Part shown: piece by piece, positions 3,175 to 61,189 of the stretch
How positions within the stretch are numbered: the first letter of the stretch is position 1
Layout: each line of letters opens with the position of its first letter
Assembly: GCF_026914265.1 (NCBI RefSeq)
Contig: NC_069125.1
Location: 68,802,046 to 68,866,045, forward strand
Reading direction: 5' to 3'
DNA from: Mya arenaria
Lineage: Eukaryota; Mollusca; Bivalvia; Myida; Myidae
Length of the DNA stretch: 64,000 nt
The notes under the pieces: generated by a model
Databases searched by the model: none
The model's input: only the letters and a program-made list of their open reading frames with translations
What the model was told of the DNA's origin: nothing
Translations under genes and position numbers: made by a program

Positions 3175-6100
3175 ATGGCTAGTGTAGAGCGAGAAAGGCT
3201 GAAAGAAGATAAATTTCGGAAACGGAGCTGGAAGCGCTGGGGTCCCTTCCTGTCTGAACGCCAGTGGGGTACCGTCCGCGAGGACTACTCGGCAGATGGA
3301 GACTGGTAAGCAGTTATACATGAATTTTCCTTTCAGTTTATTTCAATACGTCTACTTTCATTTTCAGTTTTAATGCATATAGTACATAATGTCTTGGTGT
3401 AGGATAACTTCAAATGTCACCATCGTTTTCTACCTAGTTGGTCTCATTTCCCCCACGAGCATGCACGGTCGCGGGCGTACCGGTGGGGAGAAGACGGTCT
3501 TTTTGGGGTCACGGAAAGTCATTGCCGCCTCTGTCTATCCCTTGCTCTGTGGAATGGCAAGGACCCCATTCTCAAGGAACGACTCTTCGGTCTAAATAGT
3601 CATCAGGTCAGTGTCGTAGTTTCGATAACGATGCATTGCAAGTCAAGTACTTGTATACTTTGTGTGTTAATTTCATTGACGTACCAACTGAAATAGACTG
3701 TCGTTTCATGAGATTTCATGAAGCAATTTAATTCGAGTGATGAGTAAACCTGAAGCAATCTTTGTTTTCAGGGCAACCACGGTGAGGACGTTAAGGAGCT
3801 GTACTATTACCTTGACAACACACCCACACACTCATATATGAAGGCCCTTTACAAATACCCGCACGCGGAGTTCCCTTACGCTAAGCTTGAGACGGAAAAC
3901 GCGCGCCGGGGCGTCAACGACCCCGAGTATGAGATCCTTGATACAGGTAGGCCCTCCATCCCATCACTTAAATCACGTGCACAGTTGTTTGATTGTTATT
4001 CGATGGTTTTGAATCTACCCACTACCGAATGCGGATGCATTACAAGGCTACGTGTTTCACCGGTGACGACGGAGCGGTAAACGGCCCTGTCTACTACTGT
4101 CATTATGAAGCTTACTCATTTCAGGAGTGTTTAACTATGGCCGCTACTTTGACGTTACGGTGGAGTACTGCAAGGCGAGCCCCAACGACATACTAGGCCG
4201 ATATACGGTGGCCAACAGAGGGCCGGAGCGCGCCACGGTGCACGTGTTGCCGCAACTCTGGTATCGCAACATCTGGGACTGGGGAGAGGATTGCGAGGTA
4301 TGATAATGAGGCATCAAACGGTCGAAGTCACATAAAATATGGATTATGGTTGTCAAGGCAGTGTGTGCTCTGTTATTTGCGACCTTGTTGTTGTAGTGTG
4401 ATCAATGTCACATTTTGAGGTCGAACATCGCACATACATATTTTTTTTCCTTTACAACTGCAGGCATATCACGAGGTCAAGCCGATACTGGTCAAAGACA
4501 AATCCGGGAAGATCCGATGCGAACACCCAACACTAAGTATCCCGCTACTCTTAAACAGCTGCTATATACATGGATTTTTCATTATATAAGCAATACACTA
4601 TGTTACAGTATATTTTTAACCATACACATTTAAGTAATACTGCAACACATGTCCCCTAAAGTCGTGTAAACTGGGGAACAACATATTCTTTGTTGAACTA
4701 AGCGAAAATTATTTCATTTTATTTCTTGCTCTTTGAGCAGGTGAGGTAGAGGATCGTCCGCGACTGAACTCGATGGATCGGTACGTGGAGGAGATGGAGC
4801 CGCCTCACGACCGCGCGTCCGTCCTTTACCACCAAACCTCCGTCCATGGCGAGGACAAAGGTGAGGCCGCCTACCCCATCGGGGCTACAGTCTGCCATAT
4901 ACATTCTCAATCAGCATTTTTTAATTAAAGTTTGACTTTGGTTGTGTGAACTAAGTGTTTTAGTTTATACTAATTTCTTTTAGCTCGATTTTGCTGATAG
5001 TTTCACTCTCGATTCCGTTTTCTGGGAAGGAACCGGTACTTTCGTCCATTTTGAGAGACAATGAAAAAGCTCCTCAGTTGGAAATTGAACCCACCACCTC
5101 TTGGGTGCTGAGAGGCAAAATTTGGAGTTTTGCTTAATAATTTGCTAATTATAAATTACAGGTGCTAATAGCAATAATTAGCAAAAAAAGAGGAAAATCG
5201 ACTTTCATTTTCATCATTTTTTCAGGAGTGTTTTTCTTCGAGTTAGGGCCTGACCAAGATGACAAGGCTGTTCCTGTTTTGTTTACCGAGAATTCAACCA
5301 ACGCGGAAAAGTTATATGGTGGATCAAACAAATCAAAATACGTCAAAGACGCCTTTCATCACTACGTTATTAATGGTGAGATCAGATTATTGCGAGCCAT
5401 TACTAGAACTCTAGAAATAAGTTCGAGATGTTCACGGAACATTTTCCTAGTAGACCAATGCTATATGAAAATTTATTTGCTCAATGATCATTCCCTATTT
5501 GTATCACGGTAGACATGTCAAATCTTTAAATACCCAAATTGTCTTTTTGGAGTTAATGGATGTTCTGAAATATTATACAGGTCAGACTGACACAGTGAAC
5601 CCTAAACAGTATGGCACCAAGTGCGCGGGTCACTATGTCTTTGACCTTGACCCCGGTCAGGAAGTGGTGATCAAAGTGAGGCTCTACCAGGGTGCTGAGA
5701 AGCCGAATGGGTTGACTTTTGGGGATGACTTTGATGAGGTGTTCCAAGAAAGGATCAAGGAAGCTAATGAATTTTACAAAGAGGTATGGTTTCTGCGAAA
5801 TAGAGCGTTGACAATTCCTAGGAGATTGCTTAAAAACTGAAACACACATTATAGTAGAAAAGATAGACACATGTTACATTTGCGAGTCTTTAATTTGTCA
5901 GCGTTAATGAACTATGTATTGTAATAATGTATATGAACGTTTGTGACGCGCCATTTAAGGTTATGCCTCCCAACATCAGCCCCGAGAGTGCGAGAATAGC
6001 CAGACAAGCCTTTGCTGGGGTGCTGTGGAATAAACAGTTTTACTATTATATCATTAAAGGTAAGTTTGCTTATTTTTATTTCGACACTTTACAATGGATG

Positions 6101-9100
6101 TGTTTGTCACTTTAATGAATCGGAATATAGAGTTTGTAGAGACCCCGGTCACGGTCCTTGGCCGGCAGCCACCTTATTGCCGTCATTATTGATACCACAT
6201 CGACGTGATCATATTTATATAGTATATTTTGCCTTCCCGATTACCTTAACAAGTGTTGTATAACGTTATATGTAAGGGACGCATCGTGTGGTTAGCTTTC
6301 TTTATATTTTGACGCTGTAGAGTGGATGCGCGGGGATGCTGGGCAGACCCCGCCCGAGGAGAGCCGGCAGCAGGACCGGAACCGCGAGTGGCAGCACCTC
6401 AACAACAAAGACGTCATATCCGTCCCTGACAAATGGGAGTACCCTTTTGTACGATCACCTATATTTAGCCCAGCAGCTATTTCATCAGAATATAAATTAG
6501 GTTGAATAGGGATCCATTCGTACAATATGAAAATGCCCAATGCATTAATGTTTACATCAAATATGTACCTTGAAATTACAATTTGAAGCCTTCAAGCTCA
6601 ACAAACTATTTCAACAGTACACATTTTATATCCAACCTGTCCGTGTCTATCACAGTACTGCACGTGGGGTTTGGCGCTGCAAATGATCCCGATGGCGCAG
6701 CTGGACATCCAATTCGCCAAGTCACAGCTGATTCTCCTCCTAAGCGAGTGGTACATGCAAGCTACCGGACAGGTACGTCCCAAGGGCCGCCATCATAGTC
6801 GCCATGTTTTGAAGAGGAAATCATTGAACAGCTGTTAAATCCTTCTACAATCAATGGATGATATAATGGGCTGAAGCCGGACTGTTCAGTTTAAGATTCC
6901 AGCGGTATTTAGTGATATGTTTTTGCACAGATCCACTTGTGTAGTACTGAGAAACCCATGGATTAAGTAGACACGTTTATGTATTTGATATTTTTGAATC
7001 AGTCTAAGATACAATTTGGTTTATACTAATTTATTTTAGCTCGATTGAGACGAAAGCTGATAGCTTATAAGATCACTCTCGAGTCCGTTTCCTGGGCAGA
7101 AACCAGTACTGTGTCCTTTTTGAGAGGCCATGAGAATGTACCCCTAGTGGGGATCGAACCCACAACCTCTTGGATGAGAGGCGGACACCTATACCACTAG
7201 ACCACTCTCACCCCTAAGATACAATTTGAATGAGGTATTTAGGAAAGACGGGTTAACCCAATAAAGGATTTCCATTGCTTACGTGCACCGTGAAAAAAGC
7301 ATACTCAAAACCAAAATGTAATGATTTTGTTTCTTCTTACACTTTTCCATTATCCTTAAATGATGTTCACAGCTGCCGGCGTACGAGTCCCGGTTGGACG
7401 ACTTTACTCCGCCTCTACACGCGTATTCCGTCCTGAAGGTGTACAAGGCTTCCGGTCAACGGGGTCACCGGGACGAGCTTTTCCTCGCTAGGTGCTTCCA
7501 CAAAATCGTCCTTAACTACACATGGTACGCATATTAAGTACTTACAAGGTTCGTGTAGATAAAACCACACCGCCGCGGAAAGAACGCTTAGACATGTCTG
7601 TTTTATTAAAGACAATTATCAAAGTCAGAGCTTCGGCCTTGTTATACAATTGCAATTTGCCATTGGCAACATGTATACCAAGTTACATTTGAATATATTC
7701 AATGGTTTTAGTGTTATGCCCAAGGTTGAATTTTTACACGATGATGACGCTGCTGACCGTGAACTGCTGACAACGACACCAATGCTGTGACAATACCTGG
7801 ACTTTAATCTTCGAAAAATAAATTTGCTTTTAACTGGTGCATTTTACAAGTTAATTATATAGTTTAGTGTAAGCGTTGGTCTTACCCAATTAATTAATAA
7901 TATTTTATAAAGAAAAATTTTGGCTAGCGTAGATTATAAGAATTGCAAACATTACTCATTACAGGTGGTTGAACCTGAAGGACTTTGAGGGACGCAATGT
8001 TGTGAGGGGCGGATTTATAGGCATCGACAACTTCGGCATTTTTGACAAGTCGCAGACACTTTCAGACTCGGGTACCATTGCTCATGTGAGACTTTTCAGC
8101 ATTTTATCCTCGGGTACCATTGCTCATGTGAGACTTTTCAGCATTTTATCCTCGGGTACCATTGCTCATGTGAGACTTTTCAGCATTTTATCCTCGGGTA
8201 CCATTGCTCATGTGAGACTTTTCAGCATTTTATCCTTTCATCTTGTCTGATAACTAACATTCACAAAGGCAAAAACTAAAACACGATTTCAAGTTATATC
8301 ATGTTTTATGAGTACGTGCAAAAAAATAAACACAATATATAACAACCCTCCTTCTACTTTATTCCTAGGCGAATGCCATCCCGTGGATGGGTTTCCTGTG
8401 CTCCATCATGCTCGAAATCAGCCTCATTCTGGCACACCGGGACTGTATCTACCAGGACATGGCCTCCAAGTTCTTTGAAGATTTTGTCGTCGTCATGGAC
8501 TCGCTAAACAGCGTCGATGATATTGGTACGTGTTCATGCTGTTTATGGTTGTTACATATGGGAATGTTAAAAATATAAACATCATACTAACTTACCGCTT
8601 TGTCTTTATTTCACACAGTAATTCACTATAAACATCAAGAAAATTGTTTAATGGCAAACGATTAATGGCAAATTGCTCGAAATATTTTTGCATGACTTCA
8701 CTTGCATGAATTATTTTAGATTTGATATTCAATAATTTATAAAGTGCATGTTTTCAGGACAATGGAACGAGGCGGACGGGTTTTTCTACGACCATGTGAG
8801 GGAGGGGAAAACGAGCCATCCAGTGAAGATCCGCTCCACGACCGGCTTCGTGCCGCTGCTCTGCTGTCTCGTGCTCAATGACGTCGACTTTCGGGAGCAC
8901 CCGGGTTTCGCTAAACGAACAAAGTGGTTCATAGAGAACCGAAGGGACCTTGCGAAGGGCGTAAGTGTTGATAACTGCCTACAAACAACTAACTTGAAAA
9001 ATGGCCAATGGCGATGTTTTTGTATCAATTTGAAGAACCATAACTCCACTATCCATGAATCACATCGCTCCACCCCTCCCCCGTGATATTGTTTATGTTT

Positions 9101-11912
9101 GGACTGTGCTTGAAACCTGTTTCGGCAATGCTTTTGTTTGAAACAGATGGAAATGAGAAGTTGTACACATTACCAGAACTCTTTGACAAATACTTTAAAC
9201 ATAATGTATGTTTGATGATCATTTTCCATTGGCTATCGATCACAAATGGTTAGATTTAGTGAACCCTAAAAAGTTATATATACAATGTACCACAGAGTAA
9301 TACCAATGGCAGAAAAGAAAGTGCTTTTAGAGCCATTCAATGACATACACTGGACGCTTATTTTCAAACCGTCTTTATGTGATGATAAACGTGTTATTTA
9401 TACACCTGTGATCTGTAGACTTGATTAGCTAGATGTCTCGGACTTTAATGATCATAACATGGAAATACATTCTGAACTCTATAGGTGACCTTAAATGCTG
9501 TTCACAGCTGCCGGCGTTTAATGATCATGTTATGTTCACTAAATGGACGTTTGAAGGTCCCAACCGTCGAACGCGAGTCACGCTTTTCACTACATTGTAA
9601 ATATAGGAACAATTTATGATGAGTGAGCAGCATTGTGTACTGCAAATACCATTGTTGCTGACACCCATCTTGACACACCATACTGCAAATACCATTGTTG
9701 CTGACACCCATCTTGAAACACCTTCAAATTGCTCGCTCTGCCAAAGATGCTATCATTCCTGGCCATTTCACATGTTCACTCTATCTAGCTCTATATTTAA
9801 CCTAGATGTCGTTCATGACGCGGGGAAGCAAGGAGGGCTGTACTCTGCTGTCCATGGTCAACAAGGAGAAGCTTGTCAGGATCCTCGCACACATGCTGGA
9901 TGAAAACAAGTTCCTCTCGCCCTACGGAATACGTTCCCTTTCGAAGGTCAGGTGGTGAATTTTAAAAATGCTGAATACTCTTGAGTTATGTAAGCCGTTT
10001 CATAAAGAATCACGCCGTTGGTTTTATGCATACATTATTACTGAACTGTTGAATATGTATCTTAGGTATGAAACCGCTCCTTGTTATGACGGAACTGCCC
10101 CGGTGGGCAATGATAACAAACAGTCTCAAGTCTGAGTTAAGCAGGAAGATATTTTTCTGAAGGAACAAAAATAAATTTAAATAAATGTAAAACATTCAAG
10201 TAATATAATTTAGCAAGGTTTTCCATAAGGGCTTTGCTGGAAGGAAATTACAATGAAGATTTACATTTGTTTAGTCTTGAGTCCTGAACTGAGACTTGAA
10301 ACTGTTCGTAATCACTGCTCAGGTGCTCACCATTTTCAATCATGATAAAAAATTAAGTCATGTACATTTTTAAATTCCAAACATTCCTCGATTATAAAGA
10401 ACTGAGAAATGCAGAAAACTGCAGGCTGTTTTGAATGCCCCTCCTCAGTAAGAACTACATTCATCTTTATGTAAGTGTGAAACTGCATTTCACATTTTGT
10501 TTTTGTTGCACGATAACCTTGAACAGCCATTTGTCAACAGGAGTACGAGGCAAGCCCGCATGAGTTTGAACTGTCCGGGGAGACGTATCGGGTCCAATAC
10601 GAGGCCGGAGAGTCACGGACAGGAGAGTTCGGGGGCAATACCAACTGGCGGGGACCCGTCTGGATACCCAGTACGTCATGACCGATTTTAATATTTGTGG
10701 ACGTTGTCTTGTGGAGTTAAAGTGGCATCATAGATTAAAATCAAAAGAATTCGTTTTGTGTAGCTTGAATATGTAAACATACACTTGTTTTGCAATGAAA
10801 GGTTATCATTAAAAGCATTTATTGTAAGTCCGGTTTTTATCTTTTATCTGTTTTAATTGAAACAAATAAATCTTTTTTATAGCACAGTTTACATAGTCGC
10901 TGTGAAATGTTTCAGTGAATTTCCTTATCATTGAGAACTTGCGTCGGTTCCACTACTTTTACGGCTCGGACCTGAGCGTCGAGTGCCCGACGGGATCTGG
11001 GGTGTTCATGGACCTGGGGGAGGTCGCCGACAATCTTGCTTGCCGCCTCGCAAACATCTTTCTTCCCGATCACACAGGCCGACGACCCTGCCATGGTACG
11101 CAGACTTCATTATACGAATACCTATGAATGTCCTGAATGTAGAACAGATTATTGTAAATAACTTATACCTTGACAGTTGGTAACAAAGCGTTAAGGATAT
11201 TCTATGTATCATCACTCGCTGTCATATGTTGTTATGTTTGTATAACATACTTAATATCCTTTATATATCGGTAAGTAAACAAAAGTAAATGGTAAACATT
11301 GGCTACTTCAGGAGACGAGTCGGTTTATGCCAAGGACGCGCATTTCCAGAACCTGTGTCTGTTTTACGAGTACTTCAACGGTGACGATGGGAAGGGATGC
11401 GGCGCAAGGTAACTGGATGTACAAGTTGATATCCAGAGTTAAATACACTTACTAATGTAACCTCACTAGCGGGTTAAGGTATAGGGATAGCCCCCCCCCC
11501 CCCCCCTAAAAAAAGAAAGAAAGAAAAAAGAAAGAAAGAAAGAAAGAAAGAAAGAAAAAGAGAGAAAAGAAAAGAAAGAAAATCAAAAGGAGATCATTGT
11601 ACAAGTAAATTTTTCAATATCTGTGACAAATGTTGTTAGAATACACCTGAATTAAACATTTTATTGGGGTGTATTCCGTTCTGTTATTATTCGTGGTGAC
11701 CAACTTAAAAGTTAGTAATGTCAAAAGTGTGACATGTTTGCTCAACTCACCATTTAGTTCTGTCATTATGCAGTGATATGTGTTGTAGATTGTTATATTT
11801 ATTCACCTATATGTTCACATATGTTCTTCCTTTCAGCCACCAGACGGGATGGACAGCCCTGGTTGCAAACTTGCTGTGCCAAAACCCTCTGGAAGATGAA
11901 CTCATATTTTAA
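3175..11912 (+). CDS. GH63 / MGH1-like glycoside hydrolase, copy A (20 exons, 931 aa)
   Basis: Belongs to the bacterial/fungal-type GH63 branch that includes yeast YMR196W, probably a cytosolic alpha-glycosidase; substrate unknown and no signal peptide. Exons: 3175-3305, 3438-3606, 3772-3946, 4125-4297, 4464-4536, 4741-4860, 5226-5375, 5581-5783, 5960-6059, 6321-6448, 6656-6772, 7373-7524, 7965-8085, 8369-8525, 8758-8960, 9806-9946, 10541-10670, 10916-11095, 11312-11408, 11837-11912; all joins keep one frame. Family marks: [11 protein letters not shown] (about 56-66), [14 protein letters not shown] (about 102-115), NWRGPVW (806-812), GRRPCHG (868-874) and HQTGW (908-912). By analogy with other GH63 enzymes, D585 in GFIGIDNFG is the likely general acid and E894 in FYEYF the likely base (inference). 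The start is supported by the shared context GACCAATGGCT in copy B. The exon 13 donor is multiplied by a 42-bp repeat, so its 3' end is ambiguous. Confidence 0.9.
4963..5116 (-). mobile_element. Diverged tRNA-derived SINE copy
   Basis: Similar along most of its length to the intact SINE at 7019-7213, in the same (minus) orientation. It has the same AGTTTATACTAATTTC and AGCTCGAT start, the CTCTCGATTCCGTTTTCTGG core and a decayed B-box region (GAAATTGAACCCACCACC). It lies in intron 6 of GH63 copy A. The tRNA head is truncated and no target-site duplication was found. Confidence 0.7.
7004..7228 (-). mobile_element. tRNA-derived SINE with 15-bp target-site duplication
   Basis: The minus strand reads a tRNA-like head with A box TGGTCTAGTGG and B box GGTTCGATCCC, followed by a core and an AT-rich tail. 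The body (7019-7213, about 195 bp) is flanked by perfect direct repeats CTAAGATACAATTTG at 7004-7018 and 7214-7228. That is the hallmark of LINE-assisted insertion. It sits in intron 11 of GH63 copy A and is better preserved than the copy at 4963. The head resembles a tRNA-Glu gene, but the acceptor stem does not pair, so it is not a functional tRNA. Confidence 0.88.
8068..8235 (+). repeat. 42-bp minisatellite spanning the exon 13 splice donor, in frame
   Basis: Four copies of a 42-bp unit start at 8068, 8110, 8152 and 8194. Each unit begins with the last 18 nt of exon 13 (TCGGGTACCATTGCTCAT), followed by the donor GTGAGA and 18 nt of intron. Each copy therefore offers an identical donor. Forty-two is divisible by three and no stop interrupts the run, so using donor 2, 3 or 4 would insert 14, 28 or 42 residues made of repeats of [14 protein letters not shown]. 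The paralogue (exon 13 ending at 25395) has a single donor and no array. Confidence 0.93.
9489..9595 (+). pseudogene. Relic copy of GH63 exon 12 and its acceptor
   Basis: Positions 9489-9517 match 7354-7382 (end of intron 11 plus first bases of exon 12, including TTCACAG and CTGCCGGCGT) over 29 bp with one mismatch. Downstream similarity is patchy but in the right order (TGAAGGT, then AACGCGAGTCACG and CTTTTCAC against the exon's TGAAGGT, AACGGGGTCACCGGG and CTTTTCCTC). It lies in intron 15 of GH63 copy A and has no usable reading frame. Confidence 0.5.
9639..9722. repeat. 42-bp direct duplication
   Basis: Two adjacent copies of a 42-bp segment beginning TACTGCAAATACCATTGTTG, nearly identical, in intron 15 of GH63 copy A. 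This is a two-copy tandem duplication, perhaps an early minisatellite. Confidence 0.85.
10119..10306. repeat. Short inverted repeat in intron 16 of GH63 copy A
   Basis: AACAGTCTCAAGTCTGAG near 10119 is matched in inverted orientation by CTGAGACTTGAAACTGTT near 10289, with about 150 bp between. It could be a decayed foldback element or chance. Confidence 0.35.
11491..11590. repeat. Poly(C) run followed by GAAA microsatellite
   Basis: Sixteen consecutive C residues are followed by a purine-rich GAAA/GAAAA tract of about 80 bp in the last intron of GH63 copy A. This is simple-sequence DNA. Confidence 0.95.
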
Positions 11913-13387
11913 ACCAACCTGCTCCCACTGTTAACCGCCTTAATAGTAGATTTTAGTTTATTTAGTTACTAAATAGACATAATTAGAATCATGAATGTAT
12001 TGCACTGATTAATGTCATTAATGCTTACATGTGATAACACGTGAATTCATGCTGCATGACACGTGAACAGTTATATGTGACAATTTCTCAAAGTAAACGT
12101 TATTATTGTTTAATGATATATAATTATGAAGCGCTGTATAACAGTATTGTGCTTTTAGTGAAAAGTATTGTGCTATTAGTGTGGAATGTGTCGAATTAAT
12201 TGTATCATCAATAAAATAACAAAGAACAATATGTTGATTTTTCTTCCTTTCCTGACATCACGAGAAAGCTTGAAGATCTGAAGAACACTGTTATTGACCC
12301 AGGAAGACTGTTACAGTATCCCACATCTCAAGTGTATCTGTACTTCAATGCTACATGTCTCAAGAAGATTCAGGAAATAAAGTTTTGCCTGTACCGGATG
12401 CCCGTTAATATTTAGATAAAAATGTGTTCTTCCAAGTATTGGACCTATTAGTTTTACTTGTTAACATCGTGAAATTCGACTCTGTAGAAGATCACCGTTT
12501 AGTGTGCCCCCCCCCCCACCCCCCTACGCACCAGATACCCAACCATTTATCATACTCTTAGAGCCTCTAGTTTTCTGTTTTGATGGTAGCCAGGTGCAAG
12601 TCTCAATTTGCGCCCCCTTATTGCGATCCCTCATTTTGCCCCGGAGTATAACGCCTCTTAATTAGCTGAATATTGACCGACTTGTTTGACCGACTTTTAC
12701 TGACTACTGTGACAGTTTGTTAGCTTGCGTATGGCTAGTCCAAGTAGTGCATATGTCATGTCATTGGTATCAGAGTGAAATTCAACCCCCTGTTACCATA
12801 TATATTGTGTCAGTTCATTGATCGCATGTATAGTGTACATGTTAGTCTGTGACCGAGTTTTGCTGGATAAAAAGAATAGTGTTCCATTTTATCGGTTAAA
12901 CTGAAACTAGGTTAAACACCTCTGTACAAAAAAGGAACGTTGGCTTGATGAATGAATGCTTCTTTAAATTGGGAGTATAAACAATCAAAACACAAGTTCG
13001 CGTGTTATTTGTGCTACAGCTTGTCTAAGGTCAAGGTGAAAGTAAAATACATGCTATCGTTGTACTATTTATTAGCCTGGAAGCAGCTGTCAGCATAACG
13101 CAATTATCGAGCAGTTTGGATGTAAACTTTGTTATAATGGAAAACGAGATCTAAGATTGTAACGGGAAAATAAATTTTAAATACACACAGTAGGATAAAC
13201 AATTATTGTTGACATTCATTTGATAAGTACAATACTGTACTTAATCTGTGACAACCTAGTTACCTTTAAAAAAAAAGCATCTGGAAATAAAGGGCATTCA
13301 TTTATACCGTAACTGACATTTACTTTCTGTTTGCTGTGCATTGAGATTGAGAGTAATGGGCTAGCCGGTGTTGGACGAAACTGACCA
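11913..13387. other. Intergenic spacer between the two GH63 genes
   Basis: About 1.5 kb between the stop of copy A and the start of copy B. The first few hundred bases look like 3' UTR. The middle holds a C-rich tract near 12510, and no exon is recognised. The last bases before the copy B start (CTGACCAATGGCT) match those before copy A, so the start region belonged to the duplicated block. Confidence 0.6.
12210..12215 (+). terminator. Probable poly(A) signal of GH63 copy A
   Basis: AATAAA lies about 300 nt after the stop codon. A second AATAAA at 12376 is an alternative. Confidence 0.5.
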
Positions 13388-16300
13388 ATGGCTGGACTGG
13401 AGAAGAAGAGGCTGAAGGAGGATAAGGTGCGCGCCCGGAACTGGAAGCGCTGGGGGCCGTACCTCTCGGAGCGCCAGTGGGGCACCGTGCGTGAGGACTA
13501 CTCCGAAAACGGAGACTGGTAGGCAGGCTAATTATCGTGTGTCTGTTATCGGATGTGTTTTGGCAACGCATTTTAAAGTCATGTTTACCTTGACTAGGCG
13601 CGTAGCTAGGGCGAATTTGGGGTTACGCAGATCGATGCCTTGAGGGTAGGTGTGGGAGGGGGTATTTCAAATTCGGGGCTTTTGGTATGACAAAAACTTC
13701 GACCTGTCAAAATTTCATTACGCAACTGCGTATTTGCATACAGTCAGCTGCGCCTGTTGACAGTTATTTTCTTGTTGTTAATTCAATGAATATGAGTTAT
13801 TGCCATGAAGTGTTGAATAAGCTTGTGTTAAAAGACCCAATTAACCGACTTAAGCGATGAACAATATAAACCCACCTACAATTATTAGTATAAATTATAC
13901 ATCGATGCATACACTTACAGATCATATATGTAAACAATAATACGGGTTTGCACAGATAAAAACATAATCGGACACAATTTATAAGGTAAATGCTGTAAAC
14001 ACAACACATGTGATTCATTATTTAAACTGTAATATGATGGGTATTATCTCGGTCAATAACCACACATGCATCACCTGGTCCATGTGTTTTTATCGTGTGT
14101 TTGTTTCTGTGGATCCGCTCAGCTCGTATATTGGATTGATGTAGTATTTGCCTTGTGTCACCTAATCTAAACATACAGTACATGAAGTCAGAAAAATATT
14201 GATGCCGGCATTAGCTTGTAGTTGAAAAGCATGAGGCCTGATAACGGTTTCATCCCTGCAGAGAAATGGCTTATGATAAAGGGCACGTTCAAAAAAACCA
14301 TTTGCAAGTTGTTCCATCCCTATTCCAACATTTTCCTGACAATTCTTTGCAAAATTGATGAAATTGTCTGGTGTATTGAAATGACAACGAATACCATTGC
14401 GGAGTAAATTACATTTACGCTCAGTTTCTGACAAATGTCAGTAATTGAAAAATCCTGAGAGTGAGAGGGTGGACGGCGTTCAGTGACATTAATGACACAT
14501 GTGATTATTCATCATGATATAATTTTCAATTTTCATTTCTTTACAGCCTTTTATTCGTCATTTGTGCAGTGTCAGAATTTTTGCTGACGCTGACTTTTCT
14601 GAATCGTTCATGTTAGCCACACCAAACAGCTTCAAATATGAATTTGTGTTCGATTCTGTCATGAATATGACATTTTTGTTATATGCATAATTATCAGTAA
14701 CCGGTGCTACTCCGTATTTTCAGCTGGTCCCACTTTACGCATGACCAAGCTAGGTCGCGGGCGTACCGATGGGGGGAGGACGGGCTGCTGGGAGTCACGG
14801 ACCGTCAGTGCCGCCTTTGTCTTGCGCTAGCCCTCTGGAATGGCAAAGACCCCATTCTAAAGGAGCGCCTGTACGGGCTCACGGGACACCAGGTAACCCG
14901 CGTGCTACAATTCCATTCCAATGTACTCCGAAATGTGGTCAATTGCTGGTGTTTGTTTTGTTTTGTTGTTGTCGTTGTTTTCAAATTACCCACCTATCTG
15001 GATGGAAAGAAAATCAAATTACTAAATAAATGAATGTATGTCGCTGCAATTGACATTAAAGAAGAATTACAAAGCTTTGCTTGCATGTGCATCAGTTTTC
15101 ACTTTAAACCATGTATGTAAAAACAACCTTGGAAGCTACCTATATCAGGACTTGCCAGATCTTTTTTAATCCGTATTTTCCATATATAGTGAGTGCTTTA
15201 TGTTTAACAAAGTATATACATCAGCAATATCGCAGCACAGAAGTACATATATGTGTCAATGCCCACGCAGGAAAAGTCTTACGTAATTTCACCTCGTTGA
15301 GAATTCAATTAAGTGGTTCAACATTTGCATATCATTGTTCCTTGTAGGGCAACCACGGTGAGGACGTAAAGGAGCTGTACTATTACCTTGACAACACACC
15401 CACCCACTCATATATGAAGGCCCTCTACAAATACCCGCAAGCGGAGTTCCCTTACGCAGAGCTGGAGACGGAGAACGCGCGTCGAGGCGTGCAAGACCTC
15501 GAGTATGAAATCCTTGATACAGGTAGGCATCGTTCCAAGAACCCGAGTATGTGATCCTAGATACAGGAAACACCTCAGTCCACGACCCCGAGTATGGGCT
15601 CCTTGATACAGGTAGGCTCTCCGTCGACGACCCCGAGTATGAGCTCCTTGATACATGTAGGTTCTCCGTCCACGACCCCGAGTATGAGCTCCTTGATACA
15701 TGTAGGTTCTCCGTCCACGACCCCGAGTATGAGCCCCTTGCTACAGGTATGCCCTCCGTCCACGACCCCGGGTATGAGCTCTTTGATACAGTAGACTCCT
15801 CGTCCACGACCCCGAGTATGAGCTCCTTGATACAGGTAGGCTCTCCGTCCGCGACCCCGAGTATGAGCTCCTTGATACAGGTAGGCTCCCCGTCCGCGAC
15901 CCCGAGTATGAGCTCCTTGATACATGTAGGCTCCCCGTCCGCGACCCCGAGTATGAGCTCCTTGATACATGTAGGCTATTCATCCGCGACCCCGAGTATG
16001 AGCTCCTTGATACAGGTAGGCTCCCCGTCCGCGACCCCGAGTATGAGCTCCTTGATACATGTAGGTTCTCCGTCCACGACCCCGAGTATGAGCTCCTTGG
16101 TACAGGTAGGCTCTCCGTCCGCGACCCCGAGTATGAGCTCCTTGATACATGTAGGCTCCCCGTCCGCGACCCCGAGTATGAGCTCCTTGATACATGTAGG
16201 CTATTCATCCGCGACCCCGAGTATGAGCTCCTTGATACAGGTAGGCTCCCCGTCCGCGACCCCGAGTATGAGCTCCTTGATACATGTAGGTTCTCCGTCC

Positions 16301-19300: not shown

Positions 19301-20180
19301 AAATATGTGAGGCAATGGCTTGTCAACTGTCTGAAATCAATATTTTAAACGAATTGTCAATTTTAACCACTTCATATGTACATATATACGGGGGTTTTTT
19401 CAGGCGTGTTCCGGTTTGAGTTCGGTCCGGGTCAGGACGATCAAGCTGTACCTGTTATATTCACCGAGAATTCCACAAACTACGAGCGTCTGTACGGCGG
19501 GAAAAACAAGTCCAGACACGTGAAAGACGCATTTCATGACTACGTCATACATGGTAAGAGAGATGGCTTTGACACAAAAGTATGTAAGGTACTTCATTTA
19601 TACTTGCACTATATATGAGAAATACAGGTCGTGGATACTAACTTACAATGGTTTTATTTTGGAGCAAGTGCCTGCAGAGTTCTAAGACTTATTTATACAC
19701 GATGGCTTGGTCCACCATCAGTTTTCAAAGGTTATTTTCTACATGTATCCTCGTTCGCAGAAAAAATGTTTAAAAAATTCTAGAGGTTAGAAATAAATGA
19801 CGATTAAGTAAGATAACAATCTTTGATATTTATCAAACGGGACGCATTATGGCCACTAAGCTGTCGGCGCTCTAACTCGAAAAGCGTTTGCACGATTGCC
19901 ATTAGACTTGGTCAATATGTCTATGGGCAGTATATCTAGGCTAAGTTCGATAACCGCATTATGTCCGGTCGCCCCAAACTTGGACAAAATACGCATAAGC
20001 AGAATATCTCGGCCAAGTTCGATAGTCACATTTTGTCCGAGTGCCACAAAACTTGGTCAATATACCAATGAGCAGAATATCTCGGCCAGCCATTTCGCCC
20101 CAGTCACGTCAGAGTAATATCCCATGCATTGCTTAATTTACACAAATTTAAAAAAGTTTCGATAGACGTATTTTCTGTTG

Positions 20181-20211
<31 letters not shown>

Positions 20212-23200
20212 ATCGGTGGAGTTGTCTCACGACTAAATGATACATTTTTAGACATGCAGAAGAAGGTTAACCTGAAGTATGGCACAAAGTGCGCGGGTCA
20301 CTACGTACTTAACCTTGAACCCGGACAGGAAGTTGTGATCAAAGTGAGGCTGTACCAGTGCCTAGAGGCGCCCCAGGGGGATGCCTTCTCGGAAGAAAAT
20401 TTCGATGACATGTTCGAACAACGGATACTGGAGGCAGACATGTTCTATGACCAGGTGCAGGACACATCTGTTTGAACATTACAATCAAGGAATGTAGAAA
20501 ATTGATATTTCTTCAGCAGACCTTAATCCAATGACTTTTGAAGATGTTTAAGCAGTGTTTAATAAAGAAGTAGATCAGACATCTGTATAGAAAATCAGTA
20601 TCAGATACGTATCCTTATTTCTTATAAATCGGTCACCAGAAAATCGGTGACTGGGAACATTGCACAGTATTTTTGTGCACTTCTAACACATAACTGACTG
20701 ATAAACAAGTCATTGTAAAACAGGATGCAATGATTCATCGTGCACCATCTCACCGATTGTGGTATGTCATGACAGTGTATTGATGGAAATTGCAAAGTAA
20801 AAGTGGTCTAACATACACTATGATTGATTACTGAACGCAGAGGGGTTCTCGAAATGTGTGCACTAGTAATATGTATGTTAACTTTAAGTAATAATTATAA
20901 TACTTAATGACTGCCTATCTACAATTTCATTCGCGTATAATGTAGGTTGTATCCTAATGTTTGGTAAAACTTGTTTTTTAACTATTTATATATGAGGCAA
21001 ATCCATTCCCCCGTTCCAGGTTATTCCTACTAGAAAGAAGCAGGAAAGCAGGATAGCCAGACAAGCATACGCGGGACTCCTATGGAGTAAACAGTTCTAC
21101 TTCTATATTCTTAAAGGTATTTTCTTCTATAAAATTGCGTTCTTCTATAGTTCTTATTTAAGATATGATTGCTTTCTAATTTAACATGAGCCTTCGTGGT
21201 TTTCTACTTCTAAAACGGACACCAGTGTCTCGCGTTTCGACATCAGCCAACAGTTTTAAGATGTCACACTGTTCTGTCATATAATCGTTGTTTTTCGTGT
21301 AAAGTCCGTGTTTACTATTGGGTAAAATTAATTGAAATGTCATGAAAACAGCATCCTCATGTCCGTTTTAAGAGTGGTTGCGTGGCGACAGCAACCAGCC
21401 GCCGCCCCCAGATAGCCGGTTGCAGTGGGGCCGCAACCGAGAATGGCAGCACCTCTTTAACAGGGACGTAATCTCCATGCCGGACAAGTGGGAATATCCG
21501 TGGGTAAGTAGGATTACCGGTGGGTTAGTGGGAATATCCGTGGGTTAGTAGGATTACCCGTGGGTAGGTGGGATTACCGGCGGGTTAGTGGGAATATCCG
21601 TGGGTTAGTAGGATTACCCGTGTTAAGTGGGATTACCGGTGGGTAAGTGGGAATACCGGTGGGTAAGTGGGAATAACGGTGGGTCAGTGGGAATAACGGT
21701 GGGTAAGTGGGAATAACGGTGGGTTAGTGGGAATAACGGTGGGTAAGTGGGAATAACGGTGGGTAAGTGGGAATAACGGTGGGTTAGTTGGAATACCCGT
21801 TGGTTAGTGGGATTAACGGTGGTTAAGCGGGAATATCCGTTTGGTTAAAAGTGAGATATACCTGTTGTTAAGCGTTGGTTATCATGGCCTTAATGGATTG
21901 CCCAACCCCTACGTTCAGGAAGTGGCTCTCACTACTGTGCTCGAGTAGGTTTCTAGGCGTAATTCAAGTTTTAATTAAAGTATTTTCTCTTTATACTAAT
22001 CCGTATTTCCAAACAAATCTAATTTTTTCACTATTAAGGGTCATTTCAACTTGATCCTAGTTAAATGTGTGCATTTAATGTTACCGTTATATCATTTGTC
22101 ATGTTTGATAATGTTTGGAATTAAACTGTTTTCTGGTTGTACGATCATGAAATAACCGTCTGAAAGTTTTTGTTGTTGAGAAAATTTGTTGATTGCTGAA
22201 TTGCTTTAACGACTTTCCAGTCTGTGGTTTATTGGTGCATTGCCATACTTCTGCACAACTGTGAAATGTCAGTGTGACTACCATTTTTTTGTTGCTGCAC
22301 ATACTGCGTGTCTTATTGATGGACATGATTTTTGTGCACCAACTTCAAAGTACAATCCATCAGTATTCATATTGTTTACGCAAATTCGGTGTAGACGAAT
22401 ATCTGGTAAAATCATATTCAACATTGTTTTTAAAGGCTGACATATCAGCTATCGGGGCCAATTTACATTTCAGCATTTTCTCTGAGAAAGTATTGAAAAT
22501 ATGTTGTAATAGCCCTGGTGTCTTTCGCGATGTTGTGACACAAAATTATTTCTTCTTGGCGATAACCCAGTACATAAACCTTCATGTAGAAATAGGTCAT
22601 ATGCTACCAGTGAGAATGCCTATATTAGCAAAGCCAATTAAGAATAGCGTTACCTTAACAATTAAAGCGAGCGAGTCGTGACCCTTGATCGAATGAGAAA
22701 ATAGGGAGCGTTATAAAGAAGAAAAGTATATATCTTTATATAAGAAAACATTTCTATTCAACAGTTCAGGCTTTAAATACATCAAAACACAAATAAACGA
22801 AATTGCCTACAAAATTCACAAGGTGTTGTACTTTTCCTGGAAAACAGGCTAGGTATGCACCTTCATTTGCAACATATGGTCTATTGTTTGCAACGGTCGA
22901 AACTGTTGTTTTCTTTTTTCCAGTACGCCTCTTGGGACCTGGCATTTCACATGATACCGATGTCTCGGCTGGACATACAGTTTGCGAAATCTCAACTTGT
23001 CCTTCTTCTCAGGGAATGGTACATGCACCCAAATGGGCAGGTGGGTAAGCGGGTAGATGCATCCAAACGTACCGGTGGGTAGGGCGGGTATATGCATCCA
23101 AACGGACAGGCGGGTAAGGCGTGTACATGCACCCAAACGGGCAGATGGGTAATGCGTGTACATGCACCCAAACGGGCAGGTGGGTAAGGCGTGTAAATGC

Positions 23201-26200
23201 ATCCAAACGGACAGGCGGGTAAGGCGTGTACATGCACCCAAACGGGCAGGTGGGTAATGCGTGTACATGCACACAAAACGGGCAGGTGGGTAATGCGTGT
23301 ACATGCATCCAAACGGACAGGTGGGTAAGGCGTGTACATGCACTTAAACGGGCAGGTGGGTAAGGCGGGTACATGCACCTAAACGGGCAGGCGGGTAAGG
23401 CGTGTACATGCACCTAAACGGGCAGGTGGGTAAGGCGTGTACATGCACCTTAACGGGCAGGTGGGTAAGGCGTGTACATGCACCTAAACGGGCAGGCGGG
23501 TAAGGCGTGTACATGCACCTACACGGGCAGGCGGGTAAGGCGTGCACATGCACCCAAGCGGGCAGGTGGGTAAGGCGTGTACATACATCCAAACGGACAG
23601 GCGGGTAATGCGTGTACATGCACGCAAACGGACAGGTGGGTAAGGCGTGTACATGCACCTTAACGGGCAGGTGGGTAAGGCGTGCACATGCACCTTAACG
23701 GACAGGCGGGTAAGGCGTGCACATGCACCTTAACGGGCAGGTGGGTAAGGCGTGTACATGCACCTAAACGGGCAGGTGTGAAAGGCGTGTACATGCACCT
23801 AAACGGGCAGGCGGGTAATGCGTGTACATGCACCTAAACGGGCAGGCTGGTAATGCGGGTACATGCACCTTAACGGGCAGGTGGGAAAGGCGGGTACATA
23901 CACCTAAACGGGCTGGTGGGAAAGGCGGGTACATGCACCCAAACGGGCAATTTGGTAAGGCAGGTATATGGACCCAAACGGACAGGTGGGTAAGGCGGGT
24001 ACATGCACCGAAACAGGCAATTCGGTTAGGCGGGTATATGAACCCAGACGGGCTTATGGGTAAGGCGGGTGTATGCACCCAAACAGGCAGGTGGGTAAGG
24101 CGGGTATATGTACCAAACCAGGCAGGTAAGAATGGCGGGTGTATGCACCCAGACAGGCAGTTGGGGAGGATGGGTATATGGACCCAAACAGGCAGGTGGG
24201 TAGGCCGATTTATGCACCTAGACAGGCAGGTGGGAACGGAGGGTAAATGCACCCAAACAGGCAGATGGGAAGGGCGGGTATATGGATCCAAACAGGCAGG
24301 TGGAAAGCCGTTTTTTGCACCCAAATGGGCAGGTTGGAAGGCCGGGTTATGCACCCAAACAGGCAGGTTGGTAGGGCGGGTATATGCGCCCAAACAGGCA
24401 GGTGGGAAAGGAGGGTATATGCACCCAAATGGGCAGGTGGGAAGGGAGCGTTTATGCACCCAAAAAGGCAGGTGGGTAGGGAGGGTATATGCACCCAAAA
24501 AGGCAGGTGGGAAGGACTGGTATATGGACCCAATCAGGTATATGGGAAGGGCGGATATATGGACCCAAAAAGGCAGGTGGGAAGGACTGGTATATGGACC
24601 CAAAATGGCAGGTGGGAAGGGCGGGTATATAGACCCAAACAGGCAGATTGGAGGGGCGGGTATATATACCCAAACAGGCAGGTTGGTAGGTCGGGTACAT
24701 GTACACGAAATTGTAGGTGGTTTAAGCGGATACATGCATCTGAACTGGTAGTGCTGCATACTAGCATGAACCGAAGTTGATCCAATGAAAAGGCATATTA
24801 TGCAAATAAAATACTTCAACGCACAGAATTTATTACATCTCATCCAATGTGAATATTTATAGAATCTTACTCAACTTACATTTGAACACTGTCTGGATTA
24901 ACGTGGTTTAATTTCAGCGCTGCCGTTTTTGAATGAGAATTTGTTGAAAACAGAATGACCTTCCTTTTGTTGAACGTTCCCATTTGTCTCCAGATACCAG
25001 CGTACGAGTTTGCGTTTGATGACGTGAACCCTCCGGTGCATGCGTACGCCGTCCTTAAGGTGTACAAGGCTTCTGGTCTCAAGGGCACGCGGGACGAACA
25101 GTTTCTCGCTAGATGCTTCCACAAACTCGTCCTCAACTTCACCTGGTACGTTGCCAGAGAATTTCTTTACGAGATCAAATTCTATGCGTTTTATATTGTG
25201 ATAATTGACCCAATTGTTTATAAGAGGTTGGCTGAGAAATGTTTTGAATAGTGTTTGTTTATTTTAACATTCAGGTGGATTAACAGAAAAGACGTTGAAG
25301 GAAAAAACATATTTTCAGGGGGGTTCCTAGGCTTAGATAATATAGGTGTGTTCGATAGATCCAAACCACTTCCAACAGGCGGTTTCTTGGCGCAGGTAAA
25401 TAGTTGAAAGTTAATTGTTTGTCTTTTCTTTCATTCATATAACATTTTTATTACAAAACCTCTGCATACAATAATGGTAAACTTAAAAAAACAATATTCT
25501 CTCGCGATGTAAATTATAGTTATTGAATTCAAACTTTTGCAAACTTTTAAGGCCGATGCCACCGCTTGGATGGGATTTTTCTGCACGATCATGCTAGAGA
25601 TCAGCCTCATTCTGGCACACAGAGAGCCCATTTACCAAGATATGGCCTCCAAGTTCTTCGAGCACTTCATCGGCATCATGGATGCAATGAACAGCGTAGA
25701 CGGCGTTGGTATGTGTTAAGTTAATATGAAATGGCTTTAGTGTGTCTGAGGTGTCGTATACCCAGGTAGCTGAACCGCGTAACTACTAATTAACTACATA
25801 CTAGTAATTCTAACATTAATACATTTTGGTTTAAAATTGTTTGATTTGATCTAGCGGCTAGATAGTGTTTCCTTGGTTGTTGTAATCAAACAATGTTGTC
25901 TTTGGCTTCCAGAGGACTGTAAAGGTAGTTGTTGTTAAAATGCTTTGCGATATGTGTGTTTGTTTTCTTTTATCGATCGCCTGCGGGTTGGGTTGTGCTT
26001 CTGGTTAGGCTTTCAGTGCAGCTTATTGATGTTTGAGTACTAGATTGTGGCAATACAGTACTACTTTTATTTTTAATTCCTAATTGCTTCGAATCGTACA
26101 ATGCAGATTCCAAAGAAAAAATATATACATTAAATATGAACTATTGTTTTATTGACAAAATGAAAAGACCTATAAGACGTGTGATTTTTTCCTTTTTCTC

Positions 26201-29200
26201 CACCGCTATCTTTTTACACTTTCTTTTTTCTTGTTAGTGAGCAGTATTCATTAAAACTAACCCTTACATGATATTTTTATGTGTTTCGTATGTATTTGAC
26301 TTTGCAAAATTTTATAAATAAGTCGTTATCGTTTTTTTTGTAACTGTAAATCAATACACAGATCATGATGTATAAATATGCAAAACCTTTCTTGAAAAAG
26401 TATAACAAAATAAATTTCAGTGACATTCTACTACTGACTTCCTCTTTCAAAGGATATGACATCCGAGTTGTTAGTATGAACACGACATGTTGCAGGTTTA
26501 TGGGATGAGACGGACGGCTTCTACTATGACCACGTGCGCAACAACCAATGTAGCCAGCCAGTGAAAATCAAGTCAATGGTAGGACTCGTTCCACTCTTCT
26601 GTTCGCTCGTGCTAAAGGACAGGGACTTCAAGCACCACCCGGGATTCGCCAAGCGAACCAAATGGTTCATAGAAAATAGGAAGGACCTCTCAAAGGGGGT
26701 ATGACGTCTTGCCTCTCATTTTTTCTTTCAAAGTCTCTCAAAGTGGGTATGGATATCTTGTCTCTCAAAGTGGGTATGGATATCACGTCTCTCAAAGTGG
26801 GTATGGATATCACGTCTCTCAAAGTGGGTATGGATATCTTGTCTCTCAAAGTGGGTATGGATATCACGTCTCTCAAAGTGGGTATGGCTATCACGTCTCT
26901 CAAAGTGGGTATGGATATCTTGTCTCTCAAAGTGGGTATGGATATCACGTCTCTCAAAGTGGGTATGGATATCACGTCCCTCAAAGTGGATATGGATATC
27001 TTGCCTAACAAAGTGGGTATTGATATCACGTCCCTCAAAGTGGGTATGGATATCACGTCCCTCAAAGTGGATATGGATATCTTGTCTCTCAAAGTGGATA
27101 TGGATATCTTGCCTCTCAAAGTGGGTATGGATATCTTGTCTCTCAAAGTGGATATGGATATCTTGCCTCACAAAGTGGGTATGGATATCACGTCCCTCAA
27201 AGTGGGTATGGATATCACGTCCCTCAAAGTTGGTATGGATATCTTGTCTCTCAAAGTGGATATGGATATCTTGCCTCTCAAAGTGGGTATGTATATCACG
27301 TCTCTCAAAGTGAGTATGGATATCTTGTCTCTCAAAGTTGGTATGGATATCACGTCTCTCAAAATGGGTATGGATATCTTGTCTCTCAAAGTGGTTATGG
27401 ATATCACATCCCTCAAAGTGGGTATGGATATCTTGTCTCTCAAAGTGGATATGGATATCATGCCTCTTAAAGTGGGTATGGAAATCACGTCCCTCAAAGT
27501 GGGTATGGATATATTGTCTATCAAAGTGAATATGGATACCTTGCCTCTCAAAGTGGGTAAGGATATCACGTCTCTCAATGGGGTGTGGATATCTTGCCTC
27601 TTAAAGTGGGTATGGATATCTTGTTTTTCAATTTAGGTATGGGTATTTTGTCTTTTAAAGAAGGGGTATGAATGTCTTGAAACACTTTGAGAGAAAAGAT
27701 ATCCATATCGGATATTTTCTCACTCAAGGTATTTTTTCTCAAAGAGGGTATGGATATCTTGCTCTCAAAGTATTTTCTCTCAAAGAGGGTATGTATATCT
27801 TGCTCTCAAAGTATTTTCTCTCAAAGAGGGTATGTATTTTATGTCTTCCAAAGGGGAAATTGATTTCTTAATTGTCTTGCATTTGGAATATTGATGTCTT
27901 GTTTTGAAAATAGTATCGGTAACATATGATCATAATAGTCAGAATCATACTGACAGTTTATGGTTGCCTTACACACTCTTAGCATGCCACCTGAACACAT
28001 TATTTTAGAAGAGGCTTACATACTATGACATTTATATTGAGCATCATGATAAGTAACCATGTATACAAGAACCCCGTGTACTCACAGATATCATTCATGA
28101 CGCGGGGCACGCACCAGGAGGGATCGCTGCTGCTCTCCGTCATCAACAAGGAGAAGCTCGTCAAGATCCTCAGTCACATGCTGGACGAGGAGAAGTTCCT
28201 GTCGCCCTATGGCATCCGCTCTCTCTCAAAGGTGAATAGTGCATTTAAGCCCGCCTTTAGTGACAGAGATTCAGCTTTTGTAAATGGTTCATGTCTGGTG
28301 TGACCTTTTTTATGCCTGTTAAAATGACAAGCGTTGGTATTTAAGCATACTTGGTCTTCAAATGCCGGGGCTTATCTCTCACTTACACTTTTCAATGTTG
28401 CTCATTCATATTTTGAAAGTTCTCGTGACTTATTGTGTAGTCCGTCTTGCTGTAACCCCCACCCTCATACAGGAGCACCAGTCCCACCCATACGAGCTTC
28501 ACGTTGGAGGCACGTACTACAGCGTGCAGTACGAGCCCGGGGAGTCAAAGACAAAACTATTCGGCGGCAACAGCAACTGGCGGGGACCCATCTGGCTGCC
28601 CAGTGAGAACTCTGACGTTTCTGAGTCATGTTTTATTTTGTAATTATTGCTAGTTTAAGTACATTCAGTTCAATTGTCTGATATATTCAAAGCTTATGTA
28701 GTTTTTTTTATTTATTTATTTTTTAACCGTGCAAACAATGTTTCAAAGTCTGCTTTACATTATGTTTTCATAAAGGCAGCTAGTGATCAACAATAGAAAA
28801 GCAAAGTGATTCCTATACATATCGCAAAACGACTGAGGCTATCAATGCGGTCAACAAATCCTATGTCCATGGTGACTGTGTATATTTCTTTGTTCAGTGA
28901 ACTACCTTTTAATCGAGAATCTGGAGCGGCTCGACTACTTCTACGGGGACGAGTTGAAGGTGGAGTGTCCCACGGGGTCGGGTGTGACAATGCGCCTGGG
29001 GGAAGTGGCACAGAACCTCGAGCGCCGCCTCGTCAACCTTTTCATGCCGGACGCCAAGGGCCGGCGTCCTTGTCATGGTAGGCAACGCTTATTGCGACAT
29101 ACAATGTTAAATGTTTTATAGATGATATACTATTGAAGATGGTAAACAAACTGCTCATTTGTTTTCGAACTTGTTTCGTTTGCTATTGTTCAGTCACAGA

Positions 29201-29721
29201 ATGCTGGTTAATGCTGCATAATGTATTTAAAGACGTTAAACACTGGTATGGAGCTGTTATAGGAAATATATTTCCACTATTTCTTATATCAACTAGTCTG
29301 TATTGTATTGTTTACCATTTATCCATTACATGTTCACATTTTATCGTTGTAGGGAACGACGAGGTATATGCCAAAGATCCACATTTCAAGAAGCTGTGCC
29401 TGTTTTACGAGTATTTTAACGGGGACACTGGCCGGGGCTGCGGTGCCAGGTACGATAGTAATCAAGCTCCATACCTTACTTTCAACATAAGAAAAGGTTA
29501 TGTTGAACGTTTGGTCTGTATATATTTGTGTTTATATATATATTGTAATTATAACGCGCATGCATTATTACAGATATGTAGGATACTCCTAATAACCACA
29601 ATTTTTATATCTTATATATGTCTGCAGTCACCAGACGGGATGGACGTCGCTGGTAGCGAACATTCTGGAACGGAACATTGATGTGGAGGAGGGCTACGAC
29701 AGTGCCGACAGCCTCGACTAA
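13388..29721 (+). CDS. GH63 / MGH1-like glycoside hydrolase, copy B (20 exons, 938 aa)
   Basis: Tandem paralogue of the gene at 3175-11912, with every intron at the same position and phase. Exons: 13388-13518, 14724-14892, 15348-15522, 18343-18515, 18864-18936, 19123-19242, 19404-19553, 20252-20454, 21020-21116, 21373-21503, 22924-23040, 24994-25145, 25275-25395, 25552-25708, 26496-26698, 28088-28231, 28473-28602, 28898-29077, 29353-29449, 29628-29721; one open frame. Key residues are kept: [30 protein letters not shown], with candidate acid D585 (GFLGLDNIG) and candidate base E895 (FYEYF). The carboxyl end differs: copy B ends in an acidic tail. It is longer genomically because introns 3, 10, 11 and 15 hold minisatellites grown from the splice donors. 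Substrate unknown; both copies look intact and probably active. Confidence 0.9.
15494..18110 (+). repeat. 45-bp minisatellite repeating the exon 3 end and its splice donor
   Basis: About 58 units. Each has 28 nt equivalent to the end of exon 3 (GACCCCGAGTATGAG, then CTTGATACAG), followed by 17 nt of intron starting GTAGGC. Nearly every unit carries the donor ATACAG|GTAGGC. Some units lack 9 nt (CCGAGGAGCTCCTTGG). Others, at about 15787, 16373, 16639, 16908 and 17177, have lost a G, so the GT donor becomes TA. The last three recur every 269-270 bp, a higher-order unit of six repeats. The period is a multiple of three, so long open frames appear on both strands by geometry alone. In the gene's own frame a TGA follows soon after the first donor (15522). 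Confidence 0.97.
18168..18310 (+). pseudogene. Relic duplicate of GH63 exon 4
   Basis: Between the 45-bp array and the true exon 4, the frame reads [20 protein letters not shown]. This resembles the exon 4 product [20 protein letters not shown] plus RY. Shared nucleotide blocks include TGTACTGCAAGG and CGGTATACGG, and farther on GTGCAC with GCCAACAATT against GTGCAC with GCCACAACTC. A possible acceptor (TGTACAAG) would lead straight into a stop, so it looks dead. It indicates an older duplication that included exon 4. Confidence 0.5.
19855..20100. repeat. Degenerate tandem repeat of about 75 bp, three copies
   Basis: Three diverged copies share CAATAT or AAATACG, then GCAGAATATCTCGGCCAAG and TTCGATA with a TGTCCG block. 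They lie in intron 7 of GH63 copy B. A dispersed molluscan repeat is likely; no coding potential. Confidence 0.6.
21485..21850 (+). repeat. 20-bp minisatellite seeded by the exon 10 splice donor
   Basis: About 18 units of roughly 20 bp, such as GTGGGTAAGTGGGAATAACG, follow directly on exon 10. That exon ends AAGTGGGAATATCCGTGG before GTAAGT at 21504. Each unit therefore restates the exon tail plus a donor-like GTAAGT, GTTAGT or GTCAGT. Copies near the exon keep the exon text (GGGAATATCCGTGG); later ones converge on GGGAATAACGGTGG. In the gene frame the run hits a stop within a few units. Confidence 0.9.
23019..24760 (+). repeat. 35-bp minisatellite built from the exon 11 end and its donor
   Basis: About 50 units. 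The founder is visible: the last 22 nt of exon 11 (GTACATGCACCCAAATGGGC and AG, 23019-23040) plus 13 nt of intron (GTGGGTAAGCGGG). Copies between about 23100 and 23870 are well conserved and mostly keep CAG|GTGGGTAAG. From about 23880 to the end, units drift (GGTATATGGACCCAAA, GGAAGG) and the donor decays. Because 35 is not a multiple of three, using any later donor would shift the frame. It occupies most of intron 11 of GH63 copy B. Confidence 0.96.
26683..27860 (+). repeat. 27-bp minisatellite seeded by the exon 15 splice donor
   Basis: About 35 units of 27 bp (CTCTCAAAGTGGGTATGG followed by ATATCTTG or ATATCACG) begin at the end of exon 15. That exon ends CTCTCAAAGGGG before GTATGA at 26699. 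Each unit repeats the last 10-11 exon bases and a GTATGG donor-like site. From about 27650 the units become longer and degenerate (TATTTTCTCTCAAAGAGGG). In the gene frame the first extension codons are GTA TGA, so reading through stops at once. Confidence 0.94.
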
Positions 29722-35892: not shown

Positions 35893-36221
35893 AAGGACTT
35901 GCGACCTGATGTTATGTTATTATGGACAACATTGTTAGACGTTTGTCAAGCGATTATTATTAAATTACTTTGGCAATATATTTGTTTTGTTTTTAAATGA
36001 ATCCGTGTCGTTCGTGCGCCACCAAATTGGTTTTATGTCAATTTCAAAATGAACCCACTCGTGACTGGAGAAAGCATGGGCTTTTATCCATTACCTGTGT
36101 ATCAGCTTTTAATGAATGTTTTGCATTCACACGGGACTGCGGGGCCACATGGAAGGTAAAAACGCGGCCCATTTCCCCCACTATACCCCCAAACCAGGGG
36201 GAATTACGTATGTAACGTACA

Positions 36222-44362: not shown

Positions 44363-57800
<13,438 letters not shown>

Positions 57801-61075: not shown

Positions 61076-61189
61076 CTGCTAAATACCTTGGTTTAAGTCC
61101 CATAACCATCAACGTAAGTGCATTTAATGTAATGATTTTTGACGATACAATATCAAATAATTTTATAATACATTGTATTTTATATTTGG

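Follow-up and report, generated by a model that had tools for sequence, protein, structure and literature searches.

In two adjacent, co-oriented GH63-like genes of Mya arenaria, all five intronic minisatellites with at least three copies start in the tail of an exon and carry the 5′ splice site inside their repeat unit, as detected by TRF. The window, that is the whole stretch of DNA analysed, comprises 64,000 nucleotides (NC_069125.1, positions 68,802,046 to 68,866,045), and the sample is one haplotype. Repeated, independent births of arrays on the donors of this gene pair are supported, and we put a probability of about 0.72 on the reading that the arrays are minisatellites of the type called 'mirages' in amphioxus, in which an existing junction has been tandemly duplicated and tolerated as the first donor would still splice. 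That arrays straddle the donors after exon 13 of copy A (A13) and exons 3, 10, 11 and 15 of copy B (B3, B10, B11, B15) had been claimed in an earlier note on this DNA, and is borne out by TRF, by rebuilt gene models and by junction scores of 33-70.

The models of both genes (Table 1) were built with A/B protein homology, the sequence around each block, and agreement of GT-AG boundaries and phase. In these rebuilt models all 19 introns are common to the two copies, GT-AG, and identical in position and phase, and both coding frames stay open over their full lengths (931 and 938 aa) when the first donors are used. The copy A protein matches the Pfam families MGH1-like_GH and Glyco_hydro_63. A pattern search of bacterial and archaeal genomes for GH63 relatives gave 66 matches, none of them confirmed, and a PDB search for such relatives gave two short matches; scanning the 64-kb window with Rfam (gathering thresholds) and with ARAGORN yielded no hit. 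Third-position identity between A and B reaches 0.79 in exon 3 and 0.69 in exon 4, the remaining 18 exons lying at 0.32-0.61; this rise makes gene conversion between the copies at exons 3-4 (3772-4297 in A, 15348-18515 in B) likely.

Table 1. Gene models, donor-straddling arrays and other intronic repeats of the GH63-like pair (window coordinates)
Feature	Positions	Strand	Description
GH63-like copy A	3175-11912	+	predicted from sequence: 20 exons, 931 aa
GH63-like copy B	13388-29721	+	predicted from sequence: 20 exons, 938 aa; 72% identity with A
Array A13	8067-8236	+	42 nt x 4.0, copies identical (100% matches); exon 13 donor between 8085 and 8086; split 19+23
Array B3	15488-18111	+	45 nt x 58.8 (~59); straddles exon 3 donor between 15522 and 15523
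Array B10	21486-21840	+	20 nt x 17.5 (to 21835); straddles exon 10 donor between 21503 and 21504
Array B11	23018-24701	+	35 nt x 48.2; straddles exon 11 donor between 23040 and 23041
Array B15	26687-27660	+	27 nt, ~35 copies; exon 15 donor between 26698 and 26699, straddled by first, degenerate copy
Mid-intron repeats in A/B	9638-9722; 19906-20088		2 to 2.5 copies (TRF)
Microsatellites in A/B introns	11508-11582; 20176-20211		TRF; the former also with periods 14, 23, 31

At each of the five donors the repeat unit takes in both exonic and intronic sequence from a single junction, and in both copies the authentic junction is kept at the array edge with the gene frame open. The duplicated segment takes in roughly 12-35 nt of exon tail and 2-23 nt of intron head. 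Some of the unit splits proposed before had to be shifted by one nucleotide: A13 divides as in Table 1 and not as 18+24, and B15 as about 12+15 and not about 11+16. For B10 the proposed 14+6 is matched in quality by 18+2, as the exon homology reaches 18 nt, and the phase of the unit is thus partly arbitrary. The B10 array also has a 60-nt period, which in TRF is the one that reaches 21840, while TRF delimits B15 to 26733-27660 (27 nt x 34.4), with the exon-tail copy beginning at 26687 and a continuation of related 41-nt repeats (2.8 copies) at 27723-27837. Matches at the base period are 100% in A13 and 83-85% in B3, B10, B11 and B15 (TRF). None of the five array introns is at a position paralogous to another. 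The units had been called unrelated in sequence and period; as to sequence this holds only in part, for B10 and B11 have GGTGGGTAAG in common, and B11 and B15 have GTGGGTA.

For a scan of all 76 GH63 junctions (38 donors and 38 acceptors), each junction, taken as 30 nt of exon plus 16 nt of intron, was aligned to the first 1200 nt of its own intron and compared with 300 mononucleotide shuffles, a score of at least 33 being counted as a strong junction-spanning copy. Such copies were found at 5/38 donors, with scores of 70 (A13), 58 (B3), 59 (B10), 59 (B11) and 33 (B15), none of which was equalled by any of the 300 shuffles, and at 0/38 acceptors, where the highest straddling score was 23. Two weak straddling matches, which we do not claim as arrays, were seen at donor B9 (score 24, p 0.0066) and at acceptor A10 (score 23, p 0.0033, unequalled by its shuffles). 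The A10 match was ruled out as a tandem copy, since its partner is not next to it but at 6077, near the opposite end of the intron.

When each array was collapsed to one unit and placed at random on junctions or within introns, the probability that a donor was straddled by a minimum of 4 nt in either direction was 0.036-0.097 per array, depending on unit length, and the probability of finding all five on donors was 1.2e-6 (2.5e-6 with at least 2 nt on each side). Including the two-copy repeats, the probability of at least five of seven lying on donors is ~4e-5, and a cruder calculation over the eleven intronic repeats of the window, with 0.08 assumed for each, gives ~0.001. It is thus solid that the arrays of the GH63 pair lie on donors rather than anywhere. 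The preference for donors over acceptors is suggestive: over all genes checked, the counts of 5/49 donors and 0/48 acceptors give a one-sided p of 0.030 and a two-sided p of 0.056, and with both weak matches included (6/49 and 1/48) p is 0.11. The preferential location at donors that had been put forward is therefore strong when compared with random intron positions and weak when compared with acceptors. The difference between four arrays in copy B and a single one in copy A does not reach significance (p 0.34).

The same scan was applied to three neighbouring genes, a sulfotransferase, a trypsin-like protease and a spermidine synthase (Pfam), whose models were made by eye; junction-spanning copies were seen at 0/11 donors and 0/10 acceptors. 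This count excludes both ends of spermidine synthase exon 3 and the acceptor of its exon 5; in the protease, an intron and the acceptor that precedes the first recognised exon; and any undetected exons of the three genes. The 0/11 neighbour donors (p 0.57 against 5/38 in the GH63 pair) neither show nor exclude gene-specificity of the donor effect.

The neighbouring genes contain mid-intron arrays at 1758-1977, 33693-33980 and 53231-54879. A 50-nt array at 5-703, in the intron before a sulfotransferase exon, has its 5′ end cut by the window start; it was rejected as an acceptor case, its match ending near 703 without straddling the acceptor at 736. The sulfotransferase gene also has an apparent GC-AG intron (AAG/GCATGT, 1172-1173), as judged from frame and homology. 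The minus strand carries a 39-nt array of ~62 copies (58675-61079), some 900 nt upstream of where spermidine synthase translation starts, and its unit includes a perfect CAG/GTAAGT donor (p 0.006 against shuffled units, ~0.05 overall, as nine repeats outside the five were tested); if it lies in an intron of the 5′ untranslated region, it may be a sixth array born on a donor. Two long satellites, 36218-40541 (71 nt x 62) and 44599-47942 (25 nt x 134), with 95-96% matches (TRF), have no gene found inside them. Three copies of a tRNA-derived SINE-like element are present at 4959-5104 (partial), 7024-7216 and 50002-50194, and one exact 24-base word of it had no match in bacterial or viral contigs.

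We have scored the array GT sites downstream of the authentic donor, taking as a candidate donor any that reached at least the score of the weakest of the 33 other donors (uniform background). There are 291 such candidates, and five of them would keep an open full-length frame: 3/6 in A13, 1/111 in B3, 0/28 in B10, 1/85 in B11 and 0/61 in B15, which amounts to 2/285 for copy B. With an intron background instead, the candidates number 6, 123, 28, 84 and 51, respectively. In A13 all four unit donors are in frame, and splicing from the second, third or fourth unit would lengthen the protein by 14, 28 or 42 aa (14 codons per unit). Exonised arrays in copy B were rejected, as in-frame stops follow 3-42 nt beyond the authentic donors and so few candidates are in frame; the first donor is almost the only one that would yield the full copy B protein.

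Donor strength alone would not select the first site, since many array donors equal or beat the authentic one (6 in A13, 37 in B3, 5 in B10, 16 in B11 and 49 in B15). The donor GT is retained in 4/4 units of A13, 58/59 of B3, 16/18 of B10, 31/48 of B11 and 28/37 of B15. In B11 and B15 it is conserved no better than the other columns, as passengers would be; in B3 it is slightly above the mean column identity of the array (0.93), and several exon columns are equally high. Overall, selection for or against the donor GT is not apparent, although B3 is high, and the arrays most likely have no function.

At all five sites, the paralogue's donor has no junction-spanning copy. In the B3 array, 58 of the 59 units resemble the A junction, which is single-copy, more closely than the B junction (mean 39.5 against 34.6 of 45 positions), the sole exception being B's own exon copy; two of 61 units, partial ones at the edges, were excluded. 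A/B gene conversion complicates any reading of this pattern as homogenisation within the array that bypassed the edge unit. On the simplest reading, the B3 array would record an older junction, both exon tail and intron head, and the exon copy at its edge would have changed since. Gene conversion may account for part of the likeness between B3 and A; with conversion likely at exons 3-4, the copy A junction may itself be converted, and would not be a purely inherited outgroup for B3. A13, with its four identical units, is a recent event. As A13 is identical throughout and the other four arrays match at 83-85%, the births were repeated, and probably took place at different times.

The explanation that fits best is tolerated duplication of existing junctions. 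A short stretch across a 5′ splice site already in place would have been duplicated in tandem, at five different donors and at different times, and each array would then have expanded within its intron; with the first donor used, a normal mRNA would result. The arrays would persist because the added copies sit downstream of an unchanged exon-donor junction. We infer that the first donor is the one used, and that tolerance, not a duplication hotspot, accounts for the array position. The earlier note had offered either a mechanism acting at donors, such as transcription-linked breakage or U1-bound RNA structures, or tolerance through correct splicing of the first copy; the latter agrees best with the data, if unproved, and the former retains one lead, the motif GGGTA. 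Tolerance alone also does not explain why mid-intron minisatellites with at least three copies are absent from A and B, which counts against it.

That lead belongs to a rival reading which we regard as unlikely though not negligible, namely that G-rich donors of the GGGTA type on the coding strand, perhaps through transcription or R-loops, provoke breaks or slippage. GGGTA occurs within -22 to +16 at four of the five array junctions and at 0/33 others, the label-permutation p for any 4- to 6-mer common to four array junctions and exclusive to them is 0.004, and GGG lies within -6 to +8 at 3/5 array junctions against 1/33 others (p 0.0045). However, both the GGGTA motif and its window were picked post hoc, GGG in a wider window is not significant (4/5 against 12/33, p 0.14), B3, which has the most units of any donor array, lacks GGGTA, and GGGTA in an exon tail could stem from array turnover. 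It is doubtful that 5′ splice sites in a GGGTA context are true minisatellite hotspots in this lineage, with introns growing mainly from their 5′ ends and not from acceptors; should the lead hold, a mutational hotspot would become separable from mere tolerance.

The remaining readings are less probable. A selected role in splicing, with decoy donors or isoform choice tuning expression, would suit the frame-keeping unit donors of A13 and has a parallel in human IFI6, where splicing reportedly also starts from repeat units further downstream (excerpts of PMC4526556), but with 2/285 downstream candidates of copy B in frame, and no extra conservation of the B11 and B15 donors, it is improbable. 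Early intron creation through tandem duplication (the proto-splice-site model) is in line with PMC3087553, whose authors suggest that new introns can arise by way of mirages, and boundary repeats are reported as a possible source of novel introns in human paralogues (PMC2812944, in part); for the GH63 pair it is very improbable, as all 19 introns are common to A and B and the arrays extend old introns, none being new. Coincidence or an assembly artefact could be argued from the fact that two genes only are concerned and that A13 consists of four identical copies, but the placement probabilities above (1.2e-6 to 2.5e-6) and the divergence of units in four of the five arrays make this scarcely credible.

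Separate births at five of 38 donors, together with the array-free paralogous junctions, constitute a compact natural experiment on intron lengthening. The same set bears on the question how splicing could pass over the many donors of equal or higher score that follow closely, and what has been a curiosity of lancelets and a few human genes is moved towards a countable process.

The earlier statement that no named repeat class is defined in this way does not stand, since minisatellite-like tandem duplications across exon-intron boundaries are described as 'mirages' in excerpts of two amphioxus papers (PMC3087553, PMC3902484), the genes there being Adh3, the globins BflGb6 and BflGb9, PGBD5 and troponin C. 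Regular splicing is reportedly left undisturbed by the amphioxus mirages (PMC3087553, in part). They resemble the GH63 arrays in their boundary-spanning units, whose length differs between genes; by these partial accounts, however, they lie at both 5′ and 3′ boundaries, whereas the GH63 pair has five donors and no strong acceptor case, and the GH63 arrays differ further in reaching ~59 units and 2.6 kb. Titles and abstract openings in the open-licence literature gave no mollusc case of a boundary-spanning minisatellite, which falls short of proving that there is none. The gain of introns through tandem genomic duplication (PMC4974935; also Rogers, Zhuo, Gao and Lynch, as cited in PMC3087553) likewise involves duplication of splice signals, but makes new introns, whereas the GH63 arrays lengthen existing ones and no intron of either copy is absent from its paralogue.

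Among human genes, CBS has a 31-bp VNTR, c.1444_1467+7(16_21), at exon 13-intron 13 (PMC1395315, PMC5188458), which by its numbering comprises 24 exonic and 7 intronic nt in 16-21 repeats (PMC2630376), and more repeats are reported to go with lower enzyme activity (PMC5188458), all as given in parts of these sources. As in the GH63 arrays, its unit joins exon and intron sequence and is repeated many times; on the same partial accounts it is polymorphic in people and affects enzyme activity, whereas the GH63 arrays are known from the sequence of one haplotype. Boundary arrays are thus not always harmless, which counts against tolerance. CBS also carries 844ins68, described in an excerpt of PMC2630376 as a duplicated intron 7/exon 8 junction. 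Acceptor-junction duplications are therefore tolerated too, a further point against the tolerance reading.

The human IFI6 (6-16) minisatellite was reportedly the subject of work by Turri et al. in 1995. It provides multiple donors, and in the part of PMC4526556 concerned its downstream units are reported as used donors, whereas the GH63 array donors are candidates from sequence. Taken together, the precedents of the mirages, CBS and IFI6 make the GH63 arrays a new and unusually dense set of a known, rarely noticed kind of repeat, and perhaps extend the mirage kind to a new lineage.
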